The notes beneath the pieces are model-generated. The model did no database searches. It had not been told where the DNA came from and saw only the letters and a list, made by a program, of their open reading frames with translations. From Fibrobacterota bacterium (GTDB lineage Bacteria; Fibrobacterota; Fibrobacteria; UBA11236): a stretch of 35,411 nucleotides of DNA. Made by a program: the position numbers and the translations under genes. Positions 5,584 through 33,277 of this stretch are shown here, one piece after another. The stretch spans positions 1-35,411 of the forward strand of contig JAHFCH010000046.1 of assembly GCA_023249635.1 (NCBI GenBank), given 5' to 3'. Every line of letters begins with the position of its first letter. The stretch's first letter is position 1.

Positions 5584-6553
5584 GGGCGAGTTCCCCTTCC
5601 CCGGGCAGGCCCAGGAAGGCGATGGGATCGAGGGACAGGCCGTCCTTCTCGATTCGCAATCGCAAGCCCGCGGAATCATCCGCCAGCCAACCCAGGGTAT
5701 CACCGACGTTAACCATGGCCCCGACCCGCACCAGCGTGTCCAGGCGCGCGCATCCCCGGTAATATGAAAACAGGTTTCCGCCATGATGCAGCTTTATCCA
5801 CTGGTCAGCATGCTCCGCCGTCGGTAGGCTCACTACCCGGCCGCGTAATATGGAACGGACGGGACCGGGCTTTCCGCCCTCCAATACGGCGACGGACGGA
5901 ATCGGCTCCCCAAAATCTTGCGCGGTTCCGGAATCGGATTCCCGCGTCACCCGACGGATGGTTTCCAGTGGGCGCTGGGCGGGAAGGTCATCCAGGCAAA
6001 GACCCGGAGCGCAAAGGGTCCGCGAAGCTTTTCCGGCGACAGGGATGAACACCAGGTTTTGCCGCGTGCCGCTCAGCTCCAGCCGCTGCACTTGCCAACC
6101 CGACTCATCCGGGATCCCGGCTCCGGAAACCGGGTTGGTCATCTCGGCGCGGAATCCGATGGCGGTATCCAGTCCTGATCGGATTTCACCCTTGCCGATC
6201 AGCTCGCGGAGAGGCCCCGCAACCGATGCGCGCAAAAGACCTTCGGCACCCAGGCAGGCTTCCGGACTTGCGGGACACTCCAGCGTTACCGCTTGTGAAT
6301 CGGGGCTCCAACTTTGCGCCAGGGGAGAGGTAACCGCGCTTGCGGCCTTCGGATGGAACAGTCCGGTTAACAACCGGCCCGGGTCCTTAAAGCGCTGGAG
6401 GGCGGGGGAGGCTGCGATGGAATCGAACTTGAGGTAAATCGCCATCCCGAGGATGGCTAGGAAAAGGATTCTCAGAGTGGGCCGCCGCTTAGGAGGTTGG
6501 TTGACGTATTTGGAACGCCGCGGCGGCCGGAAATCCCTATGGGCCAGTTTCAC
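5573..6553 (-). CDS. Membrane-anchored degenerate LytM/M23-fold protein
   Basis: 326 residues. Seen: basic N-terminus, one membrane segment at about residues 27-45 (RILFLAILGMAIYL), a Pro/Ser-rich periplasmic middle, and a C-terminal domain (about 235-318) with the M23 peptidase core pattern: SILRGRVVSL, WIKLHHGGNLFSYY, VRVGAMVNVGDTLGWL, then LRLRIEKDGLSLDPIAFL. In active LytM peptidases the position of LRLRIE is HLHFE and a His-x3-Asp precedes it; both are missing here, so zinc binding and peptidoglycan cleavage are unlikely. Comparable degenerate LytM proteins (EnvC, NlpD) act as activators of amidases, a known precedent rather than proof. Start is GTG, overlapping the STAS-PEGA stop as GTGA. 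Confidence 0.72.
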   Translation of the reverse strand: MKLAHRDFRPPRRSKYVNQPPKRRPTLRILFLAILGMAIYLKFDSIAASPALQRFKDPGRLLTGLFHPKAASAVTSPLAQSWSPDSQAVTLECPASPEACLGAEGLLRASVAGPLRELIGKGEIRSGLDTAIGFRAEMTNPVSGAGIPDESGWQVQRLELSGTRQNLVFIPVAGKASRTLCAPGLCLDDLPAQRPLETIRRVTRESDSGTAQDFGEPIPSVAVLEGGKPGPVRSILRGRVVSLPTAEHADQWIKLHHGGNLFSYYRGCARLDTLVRVGAMVNVGDTLGWLADDSAGLRLRIEKDGLSLDPIAFLGLPGEGELAHAR

Positions 6554-8709
6554 TGCAAGGTCAGATGCAATGCCTTGTTCTTGCCTTCGTTGACCAATTG
6601 ATCAACGGAAGCCTTCTGCCCGCTCTTGCTCATCTCGATGCGATGCTGACCGGAAGGCAGCTCGATCTTGGCCGGAGTCTTCTTGCCGGTATTCTTTCCG
6701 TCGATGACGATATCGGCGCGCGCCGGGCTGCTCGAGAGGAAGATGATTCCGATCGGGCCGTCGCCGGGAGTCGGGGCCGAGGCCGAATGTTTGGGCTCCG
6801 GAGCGGGTTCGGGCTCACGCTCGCGCTCACGCTGGGGCGCCTGTGCCTTGATGGGAAGGTCTTCCGGCTCCTTGTAATTATCCTCTTCCGGCTGCTTGGG
6901 TTCGGGCTTCGGTTCCACGCGGCGTTCCGGTTCGGGCTTGGCCTTGGCTGCGGGTTCCGAGGACTCTTCCTTTTCCAAATCCACTTGGAGGTCATGCTCC
7001 GGGCTATTCTTGGGCAAGGTGGTTTCGAAACGTTTATAACCGGCCAGACGCACGATGATCTTGTTGGAATTATTGCTCAAGCTCACGTCGAGGGGCGTGG
7101 ATCCCTTCTTCGAGAAGTTCACGAGCACTTCGGCGCCCGAGGGCTCGCTGGTGATATGCAGCATGCCGGGCTTGGGTGCCGGTGCGGTTTCCTCGGGGGA
7201 GGGAGCCGGCTTCTCGGGTTTCTCGGCCCGCGGCGGTTTTACCTGGGGCTTCGGATGGATCGCCGCAACCTTGGGCGGCTTCGGCTCCGGCTTGGGTGTC
7301 GGTGCCGGGGGCTTGGGCGTTTCCGCGATCGGCTTGGGTTTGACTTCGGGAGCAGGCGTAGGTGCGGGCGCGACGGGGGCGACCGGAACCGAGGGCGCCG
7401 GTTGCACGGCGGTAGGGGCGGGCGTAACAGGCACCGCAGGCTCGGGGGTTCCGGGCACGACAGGAGCGGGCGCAGGTGTAACTGCCTCGGGAGTCTGGGG
7501 AGCCGGGACCGAAGGCGTCTCGATGGGCGTGGTCTCGGGCTGGGTATTGTTATGGAGGTAATACCAGATACCGGCAGCCGCCGCAACCACGAAGATCATG
7601 AGCACGATCAGCTTTGCGGGTCCGCGCGCCTCTTCGGCTAGGCTGTTGGGGGTGGCAGGAGGCAGATTGTATCCGCCGAACTTGTCCCCTTGGGACGGCG
7701 CTTCCTGGATTTTCTCTTCGGCGTATACCGGAACGTTTTCGTCATCTTGACCCGGGAACTCGCGACCGCCAACGCGGCGGCCCTGCTGCTTGCGGGCGTT
7801 CGGGCTGCGCATCCGATCCTGGGACGACTTGCGCTGGCGCGGATCGGAATCGGTATCCGGATCGTAGCCTGCCGGGGGCGCGGGCGGGGTCGGGGTGCCG
7901 TGATTGGAGGACTGGGGCGCGGTAGGCGCCGTAGGCTGGGAGAGATTGCCGAACTGACCCACGGGCAATTGCACGGTGGGGAAATCGAAATTGGCCTGGG
8001 GCTGCCCGAAGCCTTGTTGCCCCTGGTTGGGGAAAGTGGGCGCGGCATTGCCCATGCCGAAAGGCTGGTTGTTGTAATTGTAGGCGGGCGCCGGTTGCCC
8101 TTGGGGGAAACCCGGAGCGGGCTGTTCGCCCAAAGACTGATTACCGAAGCCGGGAGGATTGAAAGCGGGATACGCGGTTTCCGCCGGAGCGACCGGTGCT
8201 TGGTACGACGGGGTGGCGGGGCCGTTCTGCGGCACGCCCAATTGGTACTGGGGCAACTCGTTATTGTCGAGTTTCGATCCCAAGCGCTGTCCCATCTCGG
8301 CCTTGAACTCGTCGAACTCGGTCTTGGGAATGGCCGGTTGCTCGGCAGGTTGATTGGAAATCTTTTGCAACTCTTCGATGCGGTAGCTGGAAGTCTGGCG
8401 CAGGATCTCTTTGGAGTCGGCGATCATTTCCGCTTCGGAACGATAGATGCGCATGATATTGTCGAGCCCCGCGCGCTTGAGAATGTCCTGCACCTTGGGA
8501 TGTTCGGTGAGGATGGCGATGCGGCCGCTGACCTCGAGCATATGCCGGTTGGAAGCGATGAATGCGTTGATGGTGTCGCTGTAGAGGTACTCGAGATTGC
8601 CCAGGTCGATGACCACATTGCGCATGTCGTTCTCGATCAGGAACCGCACCGTATTCTTCAGTTTCGCCGAATCGAAAACCTCTCCGTCGGCCAAACGCGC
8701 GGAAACCAC
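6550..8709 (-). CDS. STAS - transmembrane - double PEGA domain protein
   Basis: 719 residues from the GTG at 8709. Domain order: N-terminal STAS (anti-sigma-factor-antagonist-like) domain, residues 1-95, with VVIDLGNLEYLYSDTINAFI where SpoIIAA has its DSSG loop; a Gln/Pro/Gly-rich cytoplasmic linker (about 110-360); one membrane helix (about 363-387, LIVLMIFVVAAAAGIWYYL); a long Pro/Ala/Lys-rich spacer; PEGA domain 1 (about 513-580, TSEPSGAEVLVN...STPLDVSL); a charged Pro/Glu-rich stretch; PEGA domain 2 (about 647-719, SSPARADIVIDGKNTGKKTP). PEGA domains are typical of surface or S-layer-associated proteins. The protein would link a cytoplasmic STAS module to an envelope-binding tail. The STAS fold needs a first strand encoded upstream of 8709, so the true start is probably the ATC at 8745 (see separate entry). 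Operon head for three envelope genes. Confidence 0.85.
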   Translation of the reverse strand: MVSARLADGEVFDSAKLKNTVRFLIENDMRNVVIDLGNLEYLYSDTINAFIASNRHMLEVSGRIAILTEHPKVQDILKRAGLDNIMRIYRSEAEMIADSKEILRQTSSYRIEELQKISNQPAEQPAIPKTEFDEFKAEMGQRLGSKLDNNELPQYQLGVPQNGPATPSYQAPVAPAETAYPAFNPPGFGNQSLGEQPAPGFPQGQPAPAYNYNNQPFGMGNAAPTFPNQGQQGFGQPQANFDFPTVQLPVGQFGNLSQPTAPTAPQSSNHGTPTPPAPPAGYDPDTDSDPRQRKSSQDRMRSPNARKQQGRRVGGREFPGQDDENVPVYAEEKIQEAPSQGDKFGGYNLPPATPNSLAEEARGPAKLIVLMIFVVAAAAGIWYYLHNNTQPETTPIETPSVPAPQTPEAVTPAPAPVVPGTPEPAVPVTPAPTAVQPAPSVPVAPVAPAPTPAPEVKPKPIAETPKPPAPTPKPEPKPPKVAAIHPKPQVKPPRAEKPEKPAPSPEETAPAPKPGMLHITSEPSGAEVLVNFSKKGSTPLDVSLSNNSNKIIVRLAGYKRFETTLPKNSPEHDLQVDLEKEESSEPAAKAKPEPERRVEPKPEPKQPEEDNYKEPEDLPIKAQAPQREREREPEPAPEPKHSASAPTPGDGPIGIIFLSSSPARADIVIDGKNTGKKTPAKIELPSGQHRIEMSKSGQKASVDQLVNEGKNKALHLTLQ

Positions 8710-8994: not shown

Positions 8995-9001
8995 CGTCCA
9001 T

Positions 9002-9478
9002 TTGCGGGACGAAGACAAGTTTCCCACCGTACGCTTCCATAAATGCCGGGCCTGCGGCCATGTCTACACGGGTTCCCTATCGGGTGATAATACCTGTCCC
9101 AGCTGCCATATGCCCTACGTTCGCGATGAACCGGCCGCAAGCCGGATTACCAGGCAGGATGTGGGGGGGCATGTCCTTTTCACCGTGCGGGGCAGCCTGC
9201 ATAAGATTCAGGAGCTGGAGGATTTACGGTCCCAAATCGATGCGGCGTTATTAGCCGATGTCCTCTCCATCGCCTTCGTTTTCGAAGCCTCGTCCTTCCT
9301 CAACAGCAGCACCATCAATCTCCTGGTCAAGACCATGCAAACCCTGTCGGTGCATGGACGACCTACCTTCATCATCACCAATGAAGCCGAGGTACTTGAA
9401 AGTTTGCAGATGATGGACCTGGACCGGGTGATGCGCATTCTGCCGGGGCTGGAACAGTACAAGGCCGCCTTGGTCTGA
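9002..9478 (+). CDS. Zinc-ribbon plus STAS domain protein
   Basis: 158 residues, TTG start with a strong Shine-Dalgarno. Residues 12-40 form a four-cysteine zinc ribbon (C15-x2-C18, C32-x2-C35, as CRACGHVY and CPSCHMPY). Residues about 45-150 form a STAS domain: VLFTVRGSLHKIQELEDL, IAFVFEASSFLNSSTINLLV, which keeps a Ser-Ser pair at the loop phosphorylated in SpoIIAA-type antagonists, and a C-terminal DLDRVMRILPGLEQY close to the LDNIMRIYRSEAEM segment of the divergent STAS-PEGA protein. STAS proteins usually bind anti-sigma kinases or act inside signalling scaffolds; no kinase of that type is in the window. The zinc ribbon suggests a nucleic-acid or protein contact. No membrane segment; cytoplasmic. 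Confidence 0.78.
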   Translation: MRDEDKFPTVRFHKCRACGHVYTGSLSGDNTCPSCHMPYVRDEPAASRITRQDVGGHVLFTVRGSLHKIQELEDLRSQIDAALLADVLSIAFVFEASSFLNSSTINLLVKTMQTLSVHGRPTFIITNEAEVLESLQMMDLDRVMRILPGLEQYKAALV

Positions 9479-10829: not shown

Positions 10830-11435
10830 ATGACCCTAGGGACCTATCCGGTATTTCCGTTACGCAATCCATGCTTTCCCGGACACAAAATCCCCGTGCG
10901 GGTTTTCGAGGATCGCTACATCCAAATGCTCAAGGATGTGGAGGATAAACCCTATTTCGTCATCGCCATGATCAGTTCCGGCGAAGAGGTGGGGGGGATG
11001 GCCACTCCATACCGGGTCGGGACCTTGGTGGAGTTCGATCTCATCGATCGTCAGGGCGACTTCCAATTCATCAAGCCCAAGGGACGCAAACGCGTCTACC
11101 TGGAAACCTTCGATAGGGAAGCCAAGCCGTACCTGATAGCCGGCTGCCGCGATTACGCGGATGACCCCGTTGAGGCCCAAGCGACAGCCGATCGGCTGCC
11201 GGAATTGGAAGCCAAGATCCTGAACATGGTCACCGTGCTCGGTCCCGAAGAAAGCCGCGGCATCCGCGACGTGCTCGAAGGCGTGCGCATCGACCTTAAT
11301 CGCGAGAGCTATTCGCTTTTCCTATGCGGATGCCTGCATCTGCCGCCCATCTACCTGCAACGCCTGTTGGAATCCAAATCCCTGGCCTACCGGATGGACA
11401 ACGCCCTCAACCTGCTTTCCCAGCGGGGAGAATGA
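10830..11435 (+). CDS. Lon substrate-binding (LON-N) domain protein
   Basis: 201 residues, the normal size of stand-alone Lon N-terminal domain proteins. Seen: opening strand YPVFPLRNPCFPGHKIPVRVFEDRYIQML, equivalent to the 'lPLf.Lp.vvlfPg..lpL.IFE.RY..m' signature, then VIAMISSGEEVGG, the VGTLVEF strand, IKPKGRKRVYLE (matching the 'l...G..Rf.i' strand), and a C-terminal helical bundle with LFLCGCLHLPPIYLQRLLES. No AAA+ or protease domain, so it cannot degrade proteins itself; in other bacteria such proteins are uncharacterised or adaptor-like. First gene of a plus-strand operon; its stop overlaps the HAD-NUDIX start as ATGA. Confidence 0.88.
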   Translation: MTLGTYPVFPLRNPCFPGHKIPVRVFEDRYIQMLKDVEDKPYFVIAMISSGEEVGGMATPYRVGTLVEFDLIDRQGDFQFIKPKGRKRVYLETFDREAKPYLIAGCRDYADDPVEAQATADRLPELEAKILNMVTVLGPEESRGIRDVLEGVRIDLNRESYSLFLCGCLHLPPIYLQRLLESKSLAYRMDNALNLLSQRGE

Positions 11436-12487
11436 ACGTCGTTTTCGATTGGGCCGGGACACTGGCCGACGACCAGGAGCTGACCTGGCGTCTTACCGAT
11501 GAGGTGATCCGCGCGCGCGGCGCCCCCGGGGTCGATTTCGAAACCTACCGCCACGAGTTCACTTTGCCCGCTGACGGCTTCTACGCCGCCCATTGTCCCG
11601 GTGTCCCCTTCTCCGATATCGAATCGGACTTTGCGGCACTGTGCCGCCGCCGTTATCCCGAGGCCGCGCGGCTTTGGCCGGGCGTCGCCGAAGCATTGCA
11701 ATGCCTGGCCTGCAAGCATGGTCTCTACCTGCTTTCCACTCTCGATCAGGCGATGCTGGAAGCGGCCTTGGACCGGCTCGGTTTGCGGCAGCGCTTCCGC
11801 GCGGTGAAGGGATCATCGGGCGACAAAACGCGCGCGCTGCCGGAACTTTTGCGGGCCCTCGGCCTGGCCCAGGATGAGACCGTCATGATCGGGGATACCG
11901 CCCACGACATGTCGGCGGCACTGGCGGCGGGCGTGGCCGGCGTCGCGGTCACCTACGGCTACGGAAGCGCGCGGGATTTGGAATCGGCCGAGACCCGATG
12001 CGGCAGCTTCCCCGAAGTCGTACGCTGGCTGGACAAAGCGGCTTCGGCTGCGAACCGGTATTTTCCCGTCGCGACGGTGGGCGGACTCATCCGGGATGAT
12101 GCCGGCAACCTCCTGCTGGTGCGCACGCGGAAATGGGGCGGGCGCTTCGGCATCCCCGGAGGCAAGATCGATTACGGGGAATCCATGGAATCGGCCTTCC
12201 GGCGCGAAACCCGCGAAGAGACGGGACTGGAAATCCGGGACGTGGAATTCGTGATGAACCAGGATTGCGTCGAGCACCCGGAGTTCTACCGGCCGCGGCA
12301 TTATATCCTGGTGAATTACGCCGCGCGGACGGCGGGGATCAAACCGGCCGTGCGCTTGAACCATGAATCCGATGACTTCGCCTGGACCGCGCCGGCGGAA
12401 GCCTTGGGCATGGATTTGAACGGGCCTACGCGGGTATTGCTCGAAAAGGTGATGGCGACGGAGCAGGGAAAGAACGGAGAAGCCTGA
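11432..12487 (+). CDS. HAD-family phosphatase fused to a NUDIX hydrolase
   Basis: 351 residues from the ATG at 11432; the frame is open further upstream, but that part lies inside the previous gene. Residues 1-210: HAD hydrolase with motif I FDWAGTLAD (nucleophile Asp6; the second Asp is Ala, as in phosphonoacetaldehyde hydrolase), motif II LLSTLDQ, motif III Lys in KGSSGDKT, motif IV VMIGDTAHDM, and a helical cap between. Residues about 215-350: NUDIX domain with GGLIRDDAGNLLLVR and a full Nudix box (GKIDYGE, then the REx2EExG part at about 260), coordinating Mg2+ for pyrophosphate bond cleavage. A bifunctional protein could hydrolyse a nucleoside diphosphate derivative and then dephosphorylate a product. 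Neighbouring folB suggests a pterin triphosphate step, which is inference. Overlaps folB as TGATG. Confidence 0.85.
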   Translation: MNVVFDWAGTLADDQELTWRLTDEVIRARGAPGVDFETYRHEFTLPADGFYAAHCPGVPFSDIESDFAALCRRRYPEAARLWPGVAEALQCLACKHGLYLLSTLDQAMLEAALDRLGLRQRFRAVKGSSGDKTRALPELLRALGLAQDETVMIGDTAHDMSAALAAGVAGVAVTYGYGSARDLESAETRCGSFPEVVRWLDKAASAANRYFPVATVGGLIRDDAGNLLLVRTRKWGGRFGIPGGKIDYGESMESAFRRETREETGLEIRDVEFVMNQDCVEHPEFYRPRHYILVNYAARTAGIKPAVRLNHESDDFAWTAPAEALGMDLNGPTRVLLEKVMATEQGKNGEA

Positions 12488-13758: not shown

Positions 13759-14069
13759 TCATCCTCCCGCCAGCCCTTTCACCTTCTCCAGCAACGCGTC
13801 CACCTTGAAGGGCTTCGCCAGGTAGTCCACCTTGGAGTTGGTCTCCAAGCTGTCGGGGACATGCTTGCCCGGGTATCCGCTGATGAAGAGTACCCCCATC
13901 CCGGGACGCAAAGCCGTGAGGCGCGTCGCAAGCTCATGGCCAAGGCGTCTTCCCCGTGGCCGGCTTCCAGGATCTGGTAGTCCTTAAGGCCCAGTATGCC
14001 GGCGATGAGGCGCCGTACCGGCGCTTCATCCTCCACCAGCATGACGGTGAGCGGGTTCATATTATCCAT
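13759..14069 (-). pseudogene. Disrupted stand-alone receiver (response regulator) with deletion of the phospho-acceptor segment
   Basis: Starting at 14069 (or ATG 14060) the reverse strand reads a clear receiver N-terminus: LTVMLVEDEAPVRRLIAGIL, YQILEAGHGEDALA. The frame then continues as nonsense-like RRASRLCVPGWG. In another frame, starting right at the same bases, it reads HELATRLTALRPGMGVLFISGYPG and continues through VDYLAKPFKVDALLEKVKGLAGG to a TGA at 13761. Compared with the receiver next door (14137-14547), about 25 codons plus a frame change are missing exactly between these two parts, removing the strand with the phosphorylated Asp (the TDVMMP-type motif). The remaining Thr/Ser (FISGY) and Lys (AKPF) motifs are out of frame. 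Non-functional unless the deletion is an assembly artefact. Confidence 0.85.
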
Positions 14070-14136: not shown

Positions 14137-14547
14137 TCAAGGCTTGCGTAGGCCGTCTAGAACACTGCGGACCTTGGCGTGGAATTGGGATGCCGTGAAA
14201 GGCTTGGGGAGCCAGTCGGTTTGATCCTCGCACACGTCGTTGGGCCAAAGGTCGGCCCGGTTGTATCCCGAAATGAACAAAACCTTGATGTCGGGGCGCA
14301 AAGCGCATAATCGATCGGCCAACTCCTTGCCGTTCATCAGCGGCATCATCACGTCCGTTATCAGCAGGTGGATGATTCCGGAGAATCCTTCGCTTAGGGT
14401 CAGCGCCGCTTCCCCGTCCGCGGCCACGAACACCTTGTGCGGAGTATGGGAAAGTTGCTCGGCCAGGTACTTGCGCATGCCCGGTTCGTCATCGACAAAC
14501 AGAATGGTCGCGCCTTCGGCGCCGGGGGATGCGGACGCCGCACTCAT
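14137..14547 (-). CDS. Stand-alone receiver-domain response regulator (co-operonic with the toxin-antitoxin genes)
   Basis: 136 residues, a single REC domain with no output domain. Seen: acidic pair in ATILFVDDEPGMRKYL, phospho-acceptor Asp in LLITDVMMPLMNGKEL, switch Ser in VLFISGYNR, and conserved Lys in WLPKPF. The spacing and 'LFISGY...KPF....VR.VLD' ending resemble receivers found at the tail of hybrid histidine kinases. No kinase is in the window. Its ATG overlaps the stop of the metallopeptidase reading frame as ATGA, so it is the last gene of the higB-higA-immA operon. It may relay a phosphorylation signal to or from another protein; target unknown. Confidence 0.87.
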   Translation of the reverse strand: MSAASASPGAEGATILFVDDEPGMRKYLAEQLSHTPHKVFVAADGEAALTLSEGFSGIIHLLITDVMMPLMNGKELADRLCALRPDIKVLFISGYNRADLWPNDVCEDQTDWLPKPFTASQFHAKVRSVLDGLRKP

Positions 14548-14894
14548 GGCGGGGCCAACTTGAAAAGGCGTTTAAGGTCGTTGTGTTCGGAATCTTTCAG
14601 CAGGCAAGCTTGCTGGAGCAGCCCGACCAGGACCCCTGGAGCCACACGGTTATCGGCAGCGAAGCGTTTTATTTCTTCCCGCGTCGGCGGAACCTGCCGG
14701 GGAAAGCGGGCCAACCCGTCTTTGGGAAGCAATTGCTGGGACGCGAACGAATCGGCGGCGGCTTCCTTGGCGCGGCTTTGCACCTCTGATTCCAGGAATA
14801 CGTCACGTTTGCCGTGCAATTGGATATGTCCGGCTTCATGGAAGAAGGTGAGCCAGAATTGATCGTCGGTCGTATAGCGGAGGCTGATCTGCAT
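14544..14894 (-). CDS. ImmA/IrrE-type metallopeptidase half of a split HigA antitoxin
   Basis: 116 residues. Seen: FFHEAGHIQLHGKR with zinc-binding His19 and His23 and catalytic Glu20, then the third ligand region in EAAADSFAS, and a C-terminal helical part. Known ImmA/IrrE-type enzymes cleave a repressor partner; the fused HigA form carries this domain after an XRE helix-turn-helix. Here the helix-turn-helix half is in the preceding gene in the other frame, and the two read together only if one base is restored or a -1 shift occurs. The ATG at 14894 overlaps the previous stop as TGATG, so separate translation by re-initiation is possible. Without residues from the upstream half the fold would lack its N-terminal strands. 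Confidence 0.75.
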   Translation of the reverse strand: MQISLRYTTDDQFWLTFFHEAGHIQLHGKRDVFLESEVQSRAKEAAADSFASQQLLPKDGLARFPRQVPPTREEIKRFAADNRVAPGVLVGLLQQACLLKDSEHNDLKRLFKLAPP

Positions 14895-15631
14895 CAGGGC
14901 TTTGAAGGGGTGAGCCAGCGCGTGGCTCCGCTGATGCTTAAGCGCGGTGGTTCCGGCAGGAACACCAAGGCCACCCCGGAGGCGGCGCAGATGCGCGTGA
15001 GTTCCTTGGCGTAGCGGGATGGGGGCTTAAGGGTGAGCCTGCGGATTTCGACCAGGGAGCCGGCGAAGCGCGCCGAATCGTAGGGGGCGCAGGGCATCCC
15101 GCGCGCCTTGATTTCGCCGACACGCAACCAGCCGGCCAACAAGGCGGGATCGTTGCGGAAGGCTTGCGAGCGGCGGAAGGCAACCTTAGGCCCGAGCCAG
15201 ATGCGTTTCCAGACCTCGGGAGAGGCGACCCCGAAGAATCCCAGCACAGCTTGTAATTGCAAAACCTTATCGGTGTGCGCTTTGATCCAGCCCAGCTTTA
15301 CCATATCCCGGATGGGAAGCGTGTCCAGCCATCCCGTCTTGGACCGCAAGCGTTCAATCTCCTGGCGCTGGGCCTGGTATTCGCGGTAATGGTAGTCGCG
15401 ATTGCTCCAGAATCCCGCGGAAATGCCTAGTACCCTTTCGAGTTGCAGAGCGGTATCCGGCGTCAAGGCGGCTTTGCCTTTGATGATCTCGTTGATGGTT
15501 TTCTTGGGCCGGCCCATGCGGTCGGCGAGTTCGGCCTGGGACATGCCCAGGGCTTCCAGGGTCTCGCGCAAGGTTTCCCCCGGCGGGGAAACCACGTCAG
15601 GCGCGTACTGGTTATGGACTTGGTTTCGCAT
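14894..15631 (-). CDS. HigA-like XRE antitoxin with N-terminal part of an ImmA/IrrE domain (frame ends early)
   Basis: 245 residues. Residues about 19-70 form an XRE helix-turn-helix: LRETLEALGMSQAELADRMG then RPKKTINEIIKGKAALTPDT, matching HigA-type antitoxins that bind and repress their own promoter. After a Tyr/Arg-rich helical linker (FWSNRDYHYREYQAQ) the protein reads into ImmA/IrrE-like sequence (LTRICAASGVALVFLPEPP, SGATRWLTPSK) and stops at TGA. The expected continuation (ALMQISLRY, then HEAGH) is in the -1 frame, in the next gene. It overlaps the toxin gene by 20 nt. Palindromes at 15960 and 14068 are its likely operators. Confidence 0.85.
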   Translation of the reverse strand: MRNQVHNQYAPDVVSPPGETLRETLEALGMSQAELADRMGRPKKTINEIIKGKAALTPDTALQLERVLGISAGFWSNRDYHYREYQAQRQEIERLRSKTGWLDTLPIRDMVKLGWIKAHTDKVLQLQAVLGFFGVASPEVWKRIWLGPKVAFRRSQAFRNDPALLAGWLRVGEIKARGMPCAPYDSARFAGSLVEIRRLTLKPPSRYAKELTRICAASGVALVFLPEPPRLSISGATRWLTPSKP

Positions 15632-15950
15632 CTGCCCCGCGCAGTCCCAGGATGATGATTGAATCTATCTTATTCCAATCGTTTCCCCCATCGGCCACCA
15701 CCGGTCCGACGGGCCGGAAAAGCAGCTTGAAGGGCTGCCCCAGGTCGAGAGCCAGTTCACCATTGCCGGAGGCGGGACCGGTGATGCTTAGATGCGGCAT
15801 GGACCGCATGTCTCCAAGCACCTCCGCGTTGAAAAGTTCATCCAACCGTTGCCTGAGCACGCGGGCGCGGTTCGCCCCCAGCCGCCGCACCAGGGTTTCC
15901 TGATTGTTGCAATCGTTCTTGAGGCTTTCGTTCGCGAATACGATTTTCAT
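15612..15950 (-). CDS. HigB-like (RelE/ParE superfamily) toxin
   Basis: 112 residues, the normal size of HigB-family toxins, which cleave mRNA in the ribosome. Seen: opening strand MKIVFANESLKNDC, helices with LVRRLGANRARVLRQRLDELFNAEVLGDM, then HLSITGPASGNGELALDLGQPFKLLFRP, and a final segment DWNKIDSIIILGL, corresponding to the family's DW..I..I.I. strand. Toxin precedes antitoxin, the gene order typical of hig loci. The ATG is 10 nt downstream of palindrome copy 2, and no Shine-Dalgarno is visible. The C-terminal tail is short and its stop is inside the antitoxin gene. Confidence 0.8.
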   Translation of the reverse strand: MKIVFANESLKNDCNNQETLVRRLGANRARVLRQRLDELFNAEVLGDMRSMPHLSITGPASGNGELALDLGQPFKLLFRPVGPVVADGGNDWNKIDSIIILGLRGADAKPSP

Positions 15951-15959
15951 ATAAGGATG

Positions 15960-15980
15960 TATTAACCTTTGGGGTTAATA
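15960..15980. promoter_or_regulatory. AT-rich palindromic operator, copy 2
   Basis: Arms TATTAACC (15960-15967) and GGTTAATA (15973-15980) with a TTTGG centre, 10 nt upstream of the higB ATG. The position is where a HigA-type autorepressor would bind. It is almost the same as copy 1 at 14068-14086. Confidence 0.65.
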
Positions 15981-16259
15981 ACATAAATATTCGTTTGCGC
16001 CTACCGCGGTTTTTCGCGGGAAAATCGCCGAATAAGGGGCAGGCCGCGTTCGCCAAGGGTCCGCGCGCCTGCCTGGATCTGGAAGCAACGGTATTCGGGT
16101 ATCCGGCGTCGGCGGAGGGGGTCCCGGTTTCCGGGCGGTTTGGTTCCGTGCCCATACCCGACCCTGGCGTGTTCACGGAGTATTTGCGCGGTATGTCGGA
16201 AATTATTTTCTTCAGGATTGGACTCGGTGGGGTTGTCTATTAAGACGAAGCAGGCGAAC
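15981..16259. other. Intergenic stretch without a supported gene
   Basis: Between the hig operator and the plus-strand receiver. The left 20 bases are AT-rich (ACATAAATATTCG), the probable promoter area of the toxin operon. The rest is GC-rich; the short frames across it have no family resemblance, and I saw no RNA gene or convincing hairpin. Confidence 0.55.
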
Positions 16260-16652
16260 GTGGCGAATACCCTGGAAACCATCCTGGTTGTCGATGACGA
16301 GGCGTACATCCGGGAACTTGTCGGGGCCATCCTTTCCGTGGAAGGATATCGCATCCTTGAAGCCGGGGACGGTGAGCATGCCTTGAAAGTGGGGGCCAGA
16401 CATGCGGGCCCCATCGATCTATTGCTTACCGACGTGGTGATGAACCCCATGGGCGGCGGTGAATTGGTGCGGCGCATCATTCCTGTCCGTCCCGCCCTCA
16501 AGGTCCTTTTCATTTCAGGATACCCGGACGATCCTTCCGTTCGCTATGGCGTTGATCACGGGCATTCGTCCTTTCTCGCAAAGCCTTTTTCCCCCAAGGT
16601 CCTGGTCCGGACGGTACGCGCGGTACTGGACTCCATTACCGTCACATCCTGA
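16260..16652 (+). CDS. Stand-alone receiver-domain response regulator
   Basis: 130 residues from the GTG at 16260. Seen: ETILVVDDEAYIRELVG (acidic pair), phospho-acceptor Asp in DLLLTDVVMNPMGGGEL, switch Ser in VLFISGYPDD, and Lys in FLAKPFSPKVLVRTVRAVLD. No output domain. It belongs to the same sub-type as the receivers at 14137-14547 and 13759-14069: the shared VLFISGY and KPF segments and the ending point to recent common origin. Start is uncertain: AGG precedes the GTG by 5 nt, and in-frame TTG (16233) and GTG (16227) lie upstream. It is on the other strand from the toxin operon and has no visible palindrome of its own. Confidence 0.85.
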   Translation: MANTLETILVVDDEAYIRELVGAILSVEGYRILEAGDGEHALKVGARHAGPIDLLLTDVVMNPMGGGELVRRIIPVRPALKVLFISGYPDDPSVRYGVDHGHSSFLAKPFSPKVLVRTVRAVLDSITVTS

Positions 16653-29521: not shown

Positions 29522-31717
29522 CTATTTCAGCTTATCCCGCAACTTCAACGCGAACCCGTTCTTAGGGTTGATCGCCAGGATCTTGTTCACCGCGTCTACC
29601 GCCTGATCGCGCATGCCCATGCTCTGGAAGGTGACGGCCATCCCGCCCAACGCGGCGATTTTCTGCTTCTCGCTGCCGCCGCTGGCCGCGACGGCCTTGG
29701 AGTAGGCCAGATTGGCTTCCGCGGTCTTACCGAGATCATTCAAGTCGTCGGCGGCTTTGAGGCGTTCGGCGGCGGAGTTGGGCCAGGTCCGCGTCTGCAC
29801 CATGGCCATCAGGCTGGCTTCGCGTTCCGGGGTAACATGGGCGTTACCCTGATAGGCGGCTTTCGGGGTTTTCGCGGTCGCAGCAGGGTTGGCAGCGGGT
29901 GTTTCCGGCGGCGACCCGGGGCGCGGAGGTTCCACTGGCATGGGGGGCTCGGAATAACCGGTCTCTTCCTTGGGCGCGGGGGTGGCATGGGCCACGACCT
30001 GCGGCGCCGGCGTGGTGGGGGCTTCCGGGGCTGCGACATCGGGGTAGGGCTGGCCGGCGGGAGCGGGCGTGGTCGCAGGGTGCGATTCCACGGCCGGTGG
30101 TGCCACCGGTTCCGGAGCCGGACCCGGATCCGCTGCTATCGGAGCGTCGGCGACGGGCGCCTCAGTCGTGCCTCCGGGACGCGCTTTCTCGGCGGCATTG
30201 CCGCGCAGGAAAATGAAGAGCCCGACCATGCCCAACAGCAGCACGAGCACGCCCGCGGAGATGAGCAGTATCCGCAGCTTGGCCTTGGCCGCCGCAGCCT
30301 TGCCGTCGGGGTTGTAGATACCGGTGCGGTTATCCCCGGCGCCTTGGAATCCGTAGGCGGTGAAGCCGGCGGGCTCGGAACCAGAGCCGGCCATTTCCAT
30401 CGGATCCTTTTCCAAGGAAGAAAGGCTTACGGGCATCGACTTCGCGACCGGAGGCGGTTCGGCGCGCGGCGTTGCCTTGGGCGAAGAGAATAACGGGGCT
30501 TGCGCGCCGAATACGGTCCCGGAATCTTCGAGTTCGCTGAGGGCTGATCGCGGAGGGGGAGGCGGCGTGGGCTCGCGGCGGACGGGTTCGGGCTTGGGCG
30601 CTTGGTAACCTGTCGGGCGGACCGGAGGCGCTCCGAACAAGGTATCGCCGCCGGGCTTGGGCGTCTCGTATTGCTCAGGCTCATGAAAGGACGGTGCCTT
30701 CACGGCCGGCTTGGGCGCGGGCGCGGCGTCGGCCGCCGGGAAGAAGTTGAAAAAGGAATCGTCGTCCTGGGCGGGTTTGGCTTCGGCGCCGAACAACGTC
30801 GGCTCTTTGGCGGGAGTGGCCTGGAAAGGATCAGCCTGCCGCGGGGGCGGAGGCGCGACCGGCTCCGGCGCGCGTGCGACGGTACCGCCGCGCGGGGCCT
30901 TCTCCTGTAGGCGCTTCATCGCGCCTTGCAGTTCCCACAATCCGTCCGCGAATGCGCCGGCTTCCTGGAAGCGTTCTTCCGGCTTGGGATGCATGGCTTT
31001 GGCCAGGAATGCCGCCACATCCCGATCCATCGATCGCGCTTCGTTGAGGGTCTGGGCGGGATTGGAAGAGGGGTGCTCGCCCTTGACGAGCCGGTACAGC
31101 AATCCGGCGATGGCGAATAGATCGGTGCTGGGGTAGCTCAGGAAACCGCCGCGGCCCGCCGCTTCCGGAGCGCGGTAACCCTGGTATTCGGGGCGCAAGG
31201 GTAGCGGATCCGGGGTCATCTCCGTGTTACCCAGGGCGCGCGGATCCCAATCGCAGAGCTTGGCCACCAGCGGGCCCACCATCACGTTGCCGGGATGGAT
31301 GTTCAGGTGGCGGGTGCGCTCATGCAGCAGGGTCAGCCCTTGGCATGATTGCCATAACAGTTCCATCCCGCGGGCGTAGTAGTTGCCTTCGCCGCGGTTC
31401 TTGCGCACCCATTCCTCGAAGGACATGCCTTCGGCGAAGGCGCGGGCCACGAAAACCATCCCCATCTCTTCCTGCACGTCTATGCAACCGCACAAGTTGT
31501 CGTGGTCGACCTCGGTCATCACTCCGGCTTTGAGGAAGAAGTCGGGCGCGGCCAACAACTTGGCCGAGATTTCCTGCCGATAGATCTTGATGCAGAGCTT
31601 ACCTGCATTCCCGTTGGCGATGAAGGTGCGGGCCGCGGGGGATTCGCCGGCGAGGCCCTCCACGACGTACTTGTTCGCGATGACTTCGCCTTCGGCATAT
31701 TGGGGGTTTGCGGCCAT
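29522..31717 (-). CDS. Kinase-fold protein with altered catalytic motifs, TM segment and TPR-like tail
   Basis: 731 residues from the ATG at 31717; the longer frame to 32293 is antisense to the divergent gene. Residues 15-260 are a protein-kinase-like domain: VAIK-type Lys44 (LCIKIYR), HLNIHPGN in place of HRDxKPxN (Asp to Asn139), DWD156-158 in place of DFG, YRAPEA activation segment end, and DLFAIAGLLYRLVKGEHP. The glycine loop (GLAGESPAAR) also lacks its GxGxxG pattern. Then a Pro-rich linker, a transmembrane helix (LRILLISAGVLVLLLGMVGL, about 500), a Pro/Ala-rich periplasmic stretch and a C-terminal TPR-like helical pair (AEANLAYSKAVAAS, QAVDAVNKILAINPKNGFAL). Likely a pseudokinase scaffold in the envelope; activity unproven either way. 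TATACT 7 nt before ATG. Confidence 0.82.
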   Translation of the reverse strand: MAANPQYAEGEVIANKYVVEGLAGESPAARTFIANGNAGKLCIKIYRQEISAKLLAAPDFFLKAGVMTEVDHDNLCGCIDVQEEMGMVFVARAFAEGMSFEEWVRKNRGEGNYYARGMELLWQSCQGLTLLHERTRHLNIHPGNVMVGPLVAKLCDWDPRALGNTEMTPDPLPLRPEYQGYRAPEAAGRGGFLSYPSTDLFAIAGLLYRLVKGEHPSSNPAQTLNEARSMDRDVAAFLAKAMHPKPEERFQEAGAFADGLWELQGAMKRLQEKAPRGGTVARAPEPVAPPPPRQADPFQATPAKEPTLFGAEAKPAQDDDSFFNFFPAADAAPAPKPAVKAPSFHEPEQYETPKPGGDTLFGAPPVRPTGYQAPKPEPVRREPTPPPPPRSALSELEDSGTVFGAQAPLFSSPKATPRAEPPPVAKSMPVSLSSLEKDPMEMAGSGSEPAGFTAYGFQGAGDNRTGIYNPDGKAAAAKAKLRILLISAGVLVLLLGMVGLFIFLRGNAAEKARPGGTTEAPVADAPIAADPGPAPEPVAPPAVESHPATTPAPAGQPYPDVAAPEAPTTPAPQVVAHATPAPKEETGYSEPPMPVEPPRPGSPPETPAANPAATAKTPKAAYQGNAHVTPEREASLMAMVQTRTWPNSAAERLKAADDLNDLGKTAEANLAYSKAVAASGGSEKQKIAALGGMAVTFQSMGMRDQAVDAVNKILAINPKNGFALKLRDKLK

Positions 31718-31724
31718 GGGTGAA

Positions 31725-31730
31725 AGTATA
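31725..31730 (-). promoter_or_regulatory. -10 element of a probable leaderless transcript (kinase-like gene)
   Basis: Reverse-strand TATACT at 31730-31725 is followed by 7 nt (TTCACCC) and then ATG at 31717, placing the predicted transcription start at the start codon. It also decides the start: the upstream extension of the frame would be untranscribed. Confidence 0.55.
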
Positions 31731-31816
31731 CATTTTCGCCTTCCGACCTTACTTCCCATGACAGCGGCTTTCCAGCCCGGACGGGGGCGCCAGGGCTTTT
31801 TTATATATTTTTCCGG

Positions 31817-31822
31817 TATATT
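31817..31822 (+). promoter_or_regulatory. Putative -10 element of the TPR gene
   Basis: TATATT in an AT-rich run (TTATATATTTTT just upstream) about 45 nt before the ATG at 31868. A short hairpin-like AGCCC...GGGCT followed by six Ts (about 31772-31802) lies just upstream and is more likely part of this AT-rich promoter than a terminator. Confidence 0.4.
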
Positions 31823-31867
31823 CCAGACAGCCCCTTCAGGCCCGGGGGCCATTTTCCACAGGTGTTG

Positions 31868-33277
31868 ATGACATCGAAACCTCCCGCCTCGTCCGACCGC
31901 AGCCGTAAGACGGCATTCGTCCTTTCGCGCGTCGTTCTGTGCGGGCTCCTCTTCGTCGGGGCGGCCTCCGCCCGCAAAGATCGCGAACTCAGCGAAGATT
32001 CCCTCCAAGCCATGGTTTCCCGCGAGCCGGAAAACCCCATTCACTGGATGAAGCTCGGTTCCCTGGCGGCTCGGAACAACAATATCGATCTGGCCAAGGG
32101 CTATTTCGATGAAGCCATCAAACTTTCCGGAAACCAGGGGAAGACCATCCTCGAGGTCGGAGACGTCTGGCTTTCCCAAGGGCGAATCCGCACCAGCCTC
32201 CCATACCTGATGCCCAATCTTGGGCATCTCGATCCCGCCCGACTGGACCAGCTCCAGAACGGGCTCGAGAAGGAAAAGCTGTTGTCTGCGCAATTACTGG
32301 TACTTCGCAACCTGGGCGGCCGCACCCAGGCCTACCAGCCGGTCAACCGCCGCTTGGCCGTGCTCGCCTTCCGCATGGGGGACTACTCCCTGTGCCAGTC
32401 GACCTTGGCCCGCTTCGGCGATCAATTGGATTACGAAAGCGCCCGCAACCTGTTGCTGGTCAACTTCTTCCTCGGCGGCACGCTGGAGCCCAAGATCATC
32501 GCCGGATTGCAGAAGCGCTTCAGCCAGGGGGAGATGGGGTATTTGGCCAATCTCAATTACGCCCAACAGGGGAAGTGGCGTGAGGTCAAGGACTTCCTCA
32601 AGCGGGAGGCCAATTCACCGTCCTATCGGGATTATTACCATCTGATGCGCGCCATGGAGGCGGCCGGGGACGATCGCAGCGAGGAGGCGGCGGAGGCCTA
32701 CCAGCGGGCACTGGAGACGGGATGGGACCGCCTGAAGGTTCTCATCAACGCGGATCTCTACCATCTATACTCGAGCACGGGCAACAAGTTCAAATCGGAT
32801 CAAACCTGGGATCAGCTCAAAGAGGATTACCAGGACGTGGATCCGGATTTGCAGGAATTCATGGCGCGCCAGATGCAATTGCGGAACTACGAAAAGCAGT
32901 CCAAGTATTTCTACCGCGTAGTGCTCCGGCGCAAGCCCGGCAACGTTGCGGCCCTGACCGCGCTGTGGGAAGATCTCATGTCCAACGAGGATTACCAGAC
33001 CATCTCGGACAATCTCAAAGTGCTCTTGGACCGGGATCCGCTCTCCTGCGAAGGCAACACCCTGGCGATGGAGTTCCACTACCGCCAGAAGAACGACAAG
33101 GAACTGCTGCCGTATGGCCGCAATGCCACCGTCTACTGCTACGATTCGCTGGATCCGTATCTGGTCTTGGGAACGACTCTGCTCAACCTGAGCAAGCCGG
33201 AAGAGGCCCGTTCCTACTTCTCGACTTACATCCGCAAGGGCGGGGACGCCAACAAGGTCCCCATCAGTCTGCGCTGA
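31868..33277 (+). CDS. TPR-repeat protein with N-terminal signal anchor
   Basis: 469 residues from the ATG at 31868 (GTG 31862 and TTG 31865 are in frame; AGG is 5 nt before the ATG). Seen: basic start then a hydrophobic segment (FVLSRVVLCGLLFVGAASA) that is a signal peptide or anchor, then repeated helix pairs of TPR type: NPIHWMKLGSLAARNNNIDLAKGYFDEAIKL, DRSEEAAEAYQRALETGWDRL, YRVVLRRKPGNVAALTALWEDL, DPYLVLGTTLLNLSKPEEARSYF. TPR domains bind partner proteins; target unknown. Divergent from the kinase-like gene, whose tail also has TPR-like helices, so the two may belong to one envelope assembly (inference). Confidence 0.8.
   Translation: MTSKPPASSDRSRKTAFVLSRVVLCGLLFVGAASARKDRELSEDSLQAMVSREPENPIHWMKLGSLAARNNNIDLAKGYFDEAIKLSGNQGKTILEVGDVWLSQGRIRTSLPYLMPNLGHLDPARLDQLQNGLEKEKLLSAQLLVLRNLGGRTQAYQPVNRRLAVLAFRMGDYSLCQSTLARFGDQLDYESARNLLLVNFFLGGTLEPKIIAGLQKRFSQGEMGYLANLNYAQQGKWREVKDFLKREANSPSYRDYYHLMRAMEAAGDDRSEEAAEAYQRALETGWDRLKVLINADLYHLYSSTGNKFKSDQTWDQLKEDYQDVDPDLQEFMARQMQLRNYEKQSKYFYRVVLRRKPGNVAALTALWEDLMSNEDYQTISDNLKVLLDRDPLSCEGNTLAMEFHYRQKNDKELLPYGRNATVYCYDSLDPYLVLGTTLLNLSKPEEARSYFSTYIRKGGDANKVPISLR

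Follow-up and report, generated by a model that had tools for sequence, protein, structure and literature searches.

What is a phospho-receiver gene doing in a block of toxin-antitoxin genes, and is the block that contains it still an addiction module? These two questions are raised by a locus in a 35,411-nt stretch of DNA from a member of the Fibrobacterota, which is referred to below as the window. The initial annotation described here a four-gene operon that encodes a HigB-like toxin, an XRE antitoxin, an ImmA/IrrE half and a stand-alone receiver, through which a two-component signal might reach the addiction module. We propose, with a probability of about one half, that a HigB/HigA-ImmA module of the HigBA/PD-lambda-2 type has been domesticated here and would operate as a receiver-linked regulatory switch rather than as an addiction module. 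This reading draws on the putative toxin, which has kept its HigB fold and other conserved residues but lacks the active-site residues, the HTH and peptidase motif of HigA-ImmA, the linkage of REC1 to the module and the predicted operator copy at REC2, all of which were deduced from sequences and structure models. The features concerned are listed in Table 1.

Table 1. Features of the HigB/HigA-ImmA/receiver locus (window coordinates)
Feature	Position	Strand	Description
REC2, second receiver, pseudogene in the window	13759..14069	-	intact in four sister genomes
Second operator palindrome TTAACCTTAAAGGTTAA, adjoining the REC2 start codon	14069..14085	.	0 mismatches
REC1, single-domain receiver	14137..14547	-	136 aa; Response_reg 4.2e-17; five orthologues aligned
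ImmA/IrrE (M78) peptidase half of HigA-ImmA	14544..14894	-	116 aa; HEAGH at about 14826-14840
HigA-type XRE DNA-binding half of HigA-ImmA, severed by a frameshift	14894..15631	-	245 aa; TIGR02607
HigB/RelE-like gene, predicted RNase-dead	15612..15950	-	112 aa; fold match to P. vulgaris HigB
Operator palindrome TTAACC-N5-GGTTAA, 5' of the HigB-like gene	15962..15978	.	0 mismatches
REC3, divergent receiver, probably accessory	16140..16652	+	Response_reg 7e-20

The evidence comes from five genomes of one genus, namely the window's own genome (G000) and four congeneric sisters (G002, G003, G004 and G005) that carry the module, while a sixth congeneric genome (G001) serves for comparison; the named relatives are metagenome-assembled Fibrobacteres/Fibrobacteria genomes. 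Four minus-strand open reading frames are indeed found in the window where they were first placed, and they overlap one another by 20, 1 and 4 nt. However, they represent three genes and not four, accompanied by further receivers. In the four sister genomes, the second and third frames constitute a single gene, which has an open frame of 372-373 codons and encodes a fused HigA-ImmA product that, counted from the aligned start, is 362-363 aa long. Relative to all four sisters, one base is missing from the window just before position 14894; thus, the 1-nt overlap that had been read as a gene junction arises only because the gene is frameshifted at an internal methionine. In the fused protein, the residue at the apparent start of the window's ImmA half is an internal one, Met in three of the sisters and Leu in G004. 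A programmed frameshift joining the two frames was also considered; no convincing -1 slippery heptamer could be recognized by eye (TCA AAG CCC TGA), and since the gene is in frame in all four sisters, we treat the frameshift as a mutation or an assembly error. In the window copy, divergence from the sisters seems greater in the ImmA part than in the HTH part, a small effect that looks as if constraint had been relaxed once the gene was frameshifted. REC2 carries a 70-nt out-of-frame deletion in the window that removes its phospho-Asp segment. Thus, unless these changes are assembly errors, which are possible in a single assembly, the window copy appears damaged in two genes.

The HTH frame matches the HigA profile TIGR02607 above its cutoff (61.4 bits, cutoff 47.7), REC1 matches Response_reg, and the first gene has a HigB-like fold, whereas the Peptidase_M78 match of the ImmA half falls slightly under its cutoff (21.1 bits vs. 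22). Residues H265, E266, H269 and E290, which form the HExxH motif and the downstream Glu ligand, are invariant in 28 aligned proteins, as is the HTH, and HExxH is present in 85 out of 87 members of the HigA-ImmA family. Based on these residues, HigA-ImmA is a predicted M78 metallopeptidase. The structure model of a sister HigA-ImmA is confident (pLDDT 86), and the top PADLOC match of this protein is PD-Lambda-2_B (PDLC03982; 8.1e-25; residues 14-343 of the sister protein, the window copy being frameshifted).

The conserved block in the congeneric genomes includes the HigB-like gene, HigA-ImmA, REC1 and REC2, usually together with the divergent REC3. The four frames stand as part of the block, but its extent had been drawn too narrowly: it continues past position 14137 into REC2, REC3 diverges upstream, and both perfect palindromes had been missed. 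The block occupies one chromosomal site in five of the six congeneric genomes, between SDR, FolB and HAD-NUDIX genes on one side and NAGidase and RidA genes on the other, where the contig permits (in G005, NAGidase lies on another contig). The same site is empty in G001, where a gap of 47 bp that contains neither toxin-antitoxin nor receiver genes separates the SDR match from the NAGidase match (L154 1325-1372). With respect to gain versus loss of the block, the NAGidase tree leaves all inner branches open. In the window, the HAD-NUDIX neighbor (11324-12487) is a fused HAD-phosphatase and NUDIX protein that adjoins the FolB-like and SDR genes in a pteridine-type neighborhood conserved in the genus; the window also encodes a STAS-PEGA domain protein (6550-8709) with a separate STAS-domain ORF nearby (8999-9478).

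The order HigB, HigA-ImmA, REC1 recurs in five genomes of one genus and is not confined to the window's genome, as it would have been had the proposed operon been peculiar to it, and the retention of the block in relatives argues that the arrangement is not due to chance. A REC1 profile searched against 168 genomes of the phylum gives E-values of 1e-74 or lower in exactly the five module-bearing genomes, while the best score elsewhere is 1e-39 and comes from REC2 and hybrid-kinase receivers. REC1 lies tightly 3' of HigA-ImmA in five genomes and occurs nowhere else among the 168, which bears out the assignment of the receiver to the module. A scan of species genomes yielded 80 HigA-ImmA relatives in Cyanobacteria, Deltaproteobacteria, Nitrospirae, Chloroflexi and other groups. 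Searching all retrieved HigA-ImmA loci with a receiver HMM revealed adjacent receivers at only three loci, all from Fibrobacteria, and none at the other 77; the sole further match, a weak one in L030, is located about 3 kb away. The idea that receivers generally belong to the HigA-ImmA family was therefore rejected. No downstream gene is conserved across this family, which in its wider form is a two-gene module, also plasmid-borne, annotated as a HigA-family antitoxin and a killer suppression protein. Pairwise dN/dS values reach at most 0.26 for REC1 and 0.20 for REC2, stay below 0.2 for the ImmA half, and range over 0.06-0.22 for the HTH half and 0.15-0.29 for the toxin; these figures are only rough because dS is high or saturated in several pairs. 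Judged by these sequence comparisons, receiver and module are genuinely linked, and the linkage is conserved and maintained by purifying selection, yet restricted to one lineage. In the literature searched, which omits many subscription papers, we found no description of a toxin-antitoxin module that includes a single-domain receiver.

Conservation of the flanking gene order across the genus could also suggest that the genes of the block are merely neighbors co-inherited at one site without any functional link. We regard this as very improbable, since it is the block as a whole that G001 lacks, the HigA operator occurs within the block a second time, and the genes nearly overlap, with REC1 found only alongside the module; moreover, G003 is without REC3 while REC1 and REC2 have stayed.

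The first gene of the block has kept its fold and apparently lost its catalytic residues. The window toxin itself has no Pfam match; the HigB-like_toxin profile is matched by 23 out of 29 aligned family members, and the profile of the toxin family matches solved HigB/GraT chains. The AlphaFold model of the toxin (pLDDT 85) has as its best match P. vulgaris HigB, with a probability of 1.00 and TM scores of 0.60/0.71, at an E-value of only 0.03. Thus, as far as the model indicates, a toxin gene of the RelE/HigB fold occupies the first position. In the alignment with 62 relatives, the central active-site His, which belongs to the RCHEL motif, is present in all 62 and the C-terminal His, the equivalent of His92, in 61, whereas neither residue is found in any of the five toxins of the genus. 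Toxin homologs from the same order and class keep both histidines, so their loss seems specific to this genus. Among the positions kept are N15, G25, A29, R35, L39, L45, P52, D91 and W92. The active site of GraT/HigB has been located around His92 (PMC6393540), and the pre-cleavage structure of HigB was made with a His92-deleted form, according to the title of PDB entry 4ypb; as a caution, GraT itself is without the RCHEL-type His. In view of the residues lost in all five proteins, we consider the toxins of the genus quite probably RNase-dead, contrary to the assumption of a toxin that still cuts RNA, and since the HigB active-site residues are absent, the locus is classed as HigBA-derived and not as a functional HigBA system. 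The addiction function attributed to it is likewise not supported.

A His directly after Pro52 is common to all five toxins of the genus and might have assumed a catalytic role. Its conservation, together with the PADLOC match described above, would agree with a still-working toxin-antitoxin or PD-lambda-2-type anti-phage system, in which the receiver has replaced the third component and toxicity is due either to HigA-ImmA itself or to a HigB active site that has been rearranged. PD-lambda-2 comprises a HigB-like protein A, a HigA-peptidase B and a third gene C that is required for defense; protein B is toxic alone, and the HigB-like protein rescued this toxicity (Vassallo 2022, PMC9519451). 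Nevertheless, such a system appears improbable here, considering that both active-site histidines of the family are gone, that the third gene encodes a receiver and not a P4-antitoxin-like PD-lambda-2C, and that the window genome tolerates a frameshifted HigA-ImmA alongside an intact toxin ORF. In addition, no defense genes were recognized among the annotated neighbors.

A search of the window for the palindrome TTAACC-N5-GGTTAA gave five matches with up to 3 mismatches, versus 0.56 expected in shuffles. The motif is located upstream of the toxin gene in the window and in the sister genomes. Outside the genus, a site with at most 2 mismatches is present within 100 bp of the toxin start in 62 of 62 testable relatives, and in 57 of the 62 it has at most 1 mismatch; in random windows of the same loci, the corresponding frequencies are 0.34% and 0%. 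Both the published HigA operator (PMC10805311) and the published GraA operator (PMC6393540) have the same TTAAC/GTTAA half-sites. A terminator or an RNA hairpin is a disfavored explanation of the palindrome, because in many phyla it precedes toxin genes, as an operator would. Thus, TTAACC-N5-GGTTAA is the predicted operator of the HigA-ImmA family across many phyla (upstream of the toxin genes of L026-L103). In its HigA-type HTH and its putative palindromic operator ahead of the toxin gene, the locus resembles HigBA systems.

The second perfect palindrome overlaps or abuts the REC2 start in the window and in G002, G003 and G004, that is, in four of the five genomes, and is absent from this position in G005. 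Genome-wide, the palindrome occurs twice in each of G002, G003, G004 and G005, three times in G000 and not at all in G001. Both copies are located at the block in G002, G003 and G004, two of the three in G000, and one of the two in G005 (the toxin site, the other being unrelated). From the operator copy at REC2 and the near-exclusive genomic placement of these sites, we strongly infer that REC2 is controlled, presumably repressed, by HigA-ImmA.

REC1 displays the sequence features of a single-domain, CheY-like response regulator. Its phospho-Asp is D65 (about 14353-14355 in the window), and in the alignment of five orthologs D76, S104 and K126 are invariant and the acidic pair is retained. The REC1 start has an ATGA-type overlap with the end of HigA-ImmA in the window and three sisters, and lies about 16 nt downstream of it in G004. 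In addition, REC1 contains in all five genomes an invariant 12-residue stretch, CEDQTDWLPKPF (about 14197-14232 in the window), which presumably adjoins the usual partner-binding face of receivers and therefore suggests that REC1 has a fixed partner. REC2, which is lost in the window, is intact in four sisters with its acidic pair, phospho-Asp, Ser/Thr and Lys retained. REC3 is present in G002, G004 and G005 and missing from G003, an absence that rules it out as a core part of the block. No cognate histidine kinase was found nearby among the Pfam-scanned ORFs of the window. A minus-strand gene at 29522-32293 encodes a 923-aa protein with a Ser/Thr kinase-like domain. All three receivers resemble the receiver domains of hybrid kinases, which are numerous in these genomes, so their partners could be encoded elsewhere. 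Outside the block, the receiver domains most similar to them are parts of hybrid kinases encoded at other sites, and which kinase matches best differs between genomes.

This resemblance also agrees with the main rival explanation, in which independent receivers, placed much as HigX is, have come to be controlled by HigA. HigA would have gained control of the neighboring receivers, of REC1 by read-through and of REC2 by the operator copy, and the receivers would serve two-component signaling only, never touching HigB or HigA-ImmA. Caulobacter HigX offers a precedent, since it functions independently of HigBA (PMC13384398), and P. aeruginosa HigA is reported to regulate genes outside its own operon. 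Unlike HigX, however, REC1 is never found without the module, and both its tight junctions with HigA-ImmA and the invariance of CEDQTDWLPKPF hint at a partner of its own, without indicating which one. Thus, we consider a purely independent role of the receivers rather doubtful.

With its RNA-cutting residues apparently lost and its genes kept together with two receivers, the locus looks like an addiction module turned signaling switch. For such a domesticated module we propose a circuit of four steps, given in order of decreasing certainty. First, HigA-ImmA would repress its own operon and REC2 via the two palindromes. Second, the inert HigB-like protein may persist because, as a partner of HigA-ImmA, it tunes or restrains that protein; since the toxic protein B of PD-lambda-2 is rescued by the HigB-like protein A (PMC9519451), a restraining role of this kind can be imagined and has a precedent by analogy. 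Third, a hybrid histidine kinase encoded at another locus would phosphorylate REC1, which would then contact HigA-ImmA and alter its DNA binding or peptidase activity, a direct control that we put forward as a hypothesis. Finally, derepression might raise the level of the receivers, and REC2 could return the signal into two-component networks. As judged from the frameshifted HigA-ImmA and the deleted REC2, this putative circuit is damaged in the window's own genome. A stronger version, which we advance only tentatively, regards the phospho-receiver as a built-in subunit of an autorepressor-peptidase of toxin-antitoxin origin, whose state it gates: phosphorylation of REC1 would switch HigA-ImmA between an operator-bound and a released or proteolytic state, with the RNase-dead HigB as a co-regulator and the second receiver gene as the regulated output.

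The recruitment of chromosomal toxin-antitoxin modules into host regulation has long been debated. Here, one clade exhibits signs of several such steps together, namely a toxin gene that remains under purifying selection although its active-site residues are lost, a DNA-binding site repeated at a further gene, and the fixation of two receivers next to the module; a relative with an empty site is available for comparison. The conserved operator covers the whole HigA-ImmA family, including close relatives of the PD-lambda-2 protein B; it is apparently usable for predicting the HigA-ImmA regulon, and the regulation can be tested in culturable bacteria, for example Nostoc.

Among the known systems, PD-lambda-2 shares with this locus the A-B-C gene order, the fused HigA-peptidase B and a third gene downstream. 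It differs in that the third gene here encodes a Response_reg receiver and not a relative of the P4-antitoxin-like PD-lambda-2C, that the HigB active-site residues are lost, and that the block includes an extra receiver with its own operator. The combination of an Xre-COG2856 fusion with a RelE-type toxin was predicted to be a three-component toxin-antitoxin system (Makarova 2009, PMC2701414). As far as the accessible text of that study goes, the likeness extends to a peptidase-HTH fusion beside a RelE-family gene and to the proposal of a protease-controlled repressor circuit, whereas neither a receiver nor a second operator was found there for that system, and the toxin is degenerate here.

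The classical HigBA/GraTA systems of P. vulgaris, P. aeruginosa and P. putida likewise have the toxin gene first, a HigA HTH, the RelE fold and a TTAAC...GTTAA operator; in contrast to these systems, the antitoxin here carries a peptidase domain, the active-site residues are missing and receivers are part of the block. In Caulobacter HigBA-HigX, a regulator gene also lies directly downstream of HigBA (PMC13384398); however, HigX is an ancestral transcription factor that mostly occurs without HigBA, whereas REC1 is a single receiver domain that occurs only with the module. Finally, CprRS-higBA of P. aeruginosa provides a case of a two-component system acting on a HigBA module (PMC10805311), in which CprR is a DNA-binding regulator and not a single-domain receiver, whereas in this genus of Fibrobacteria the locus itself encodes the receivers.
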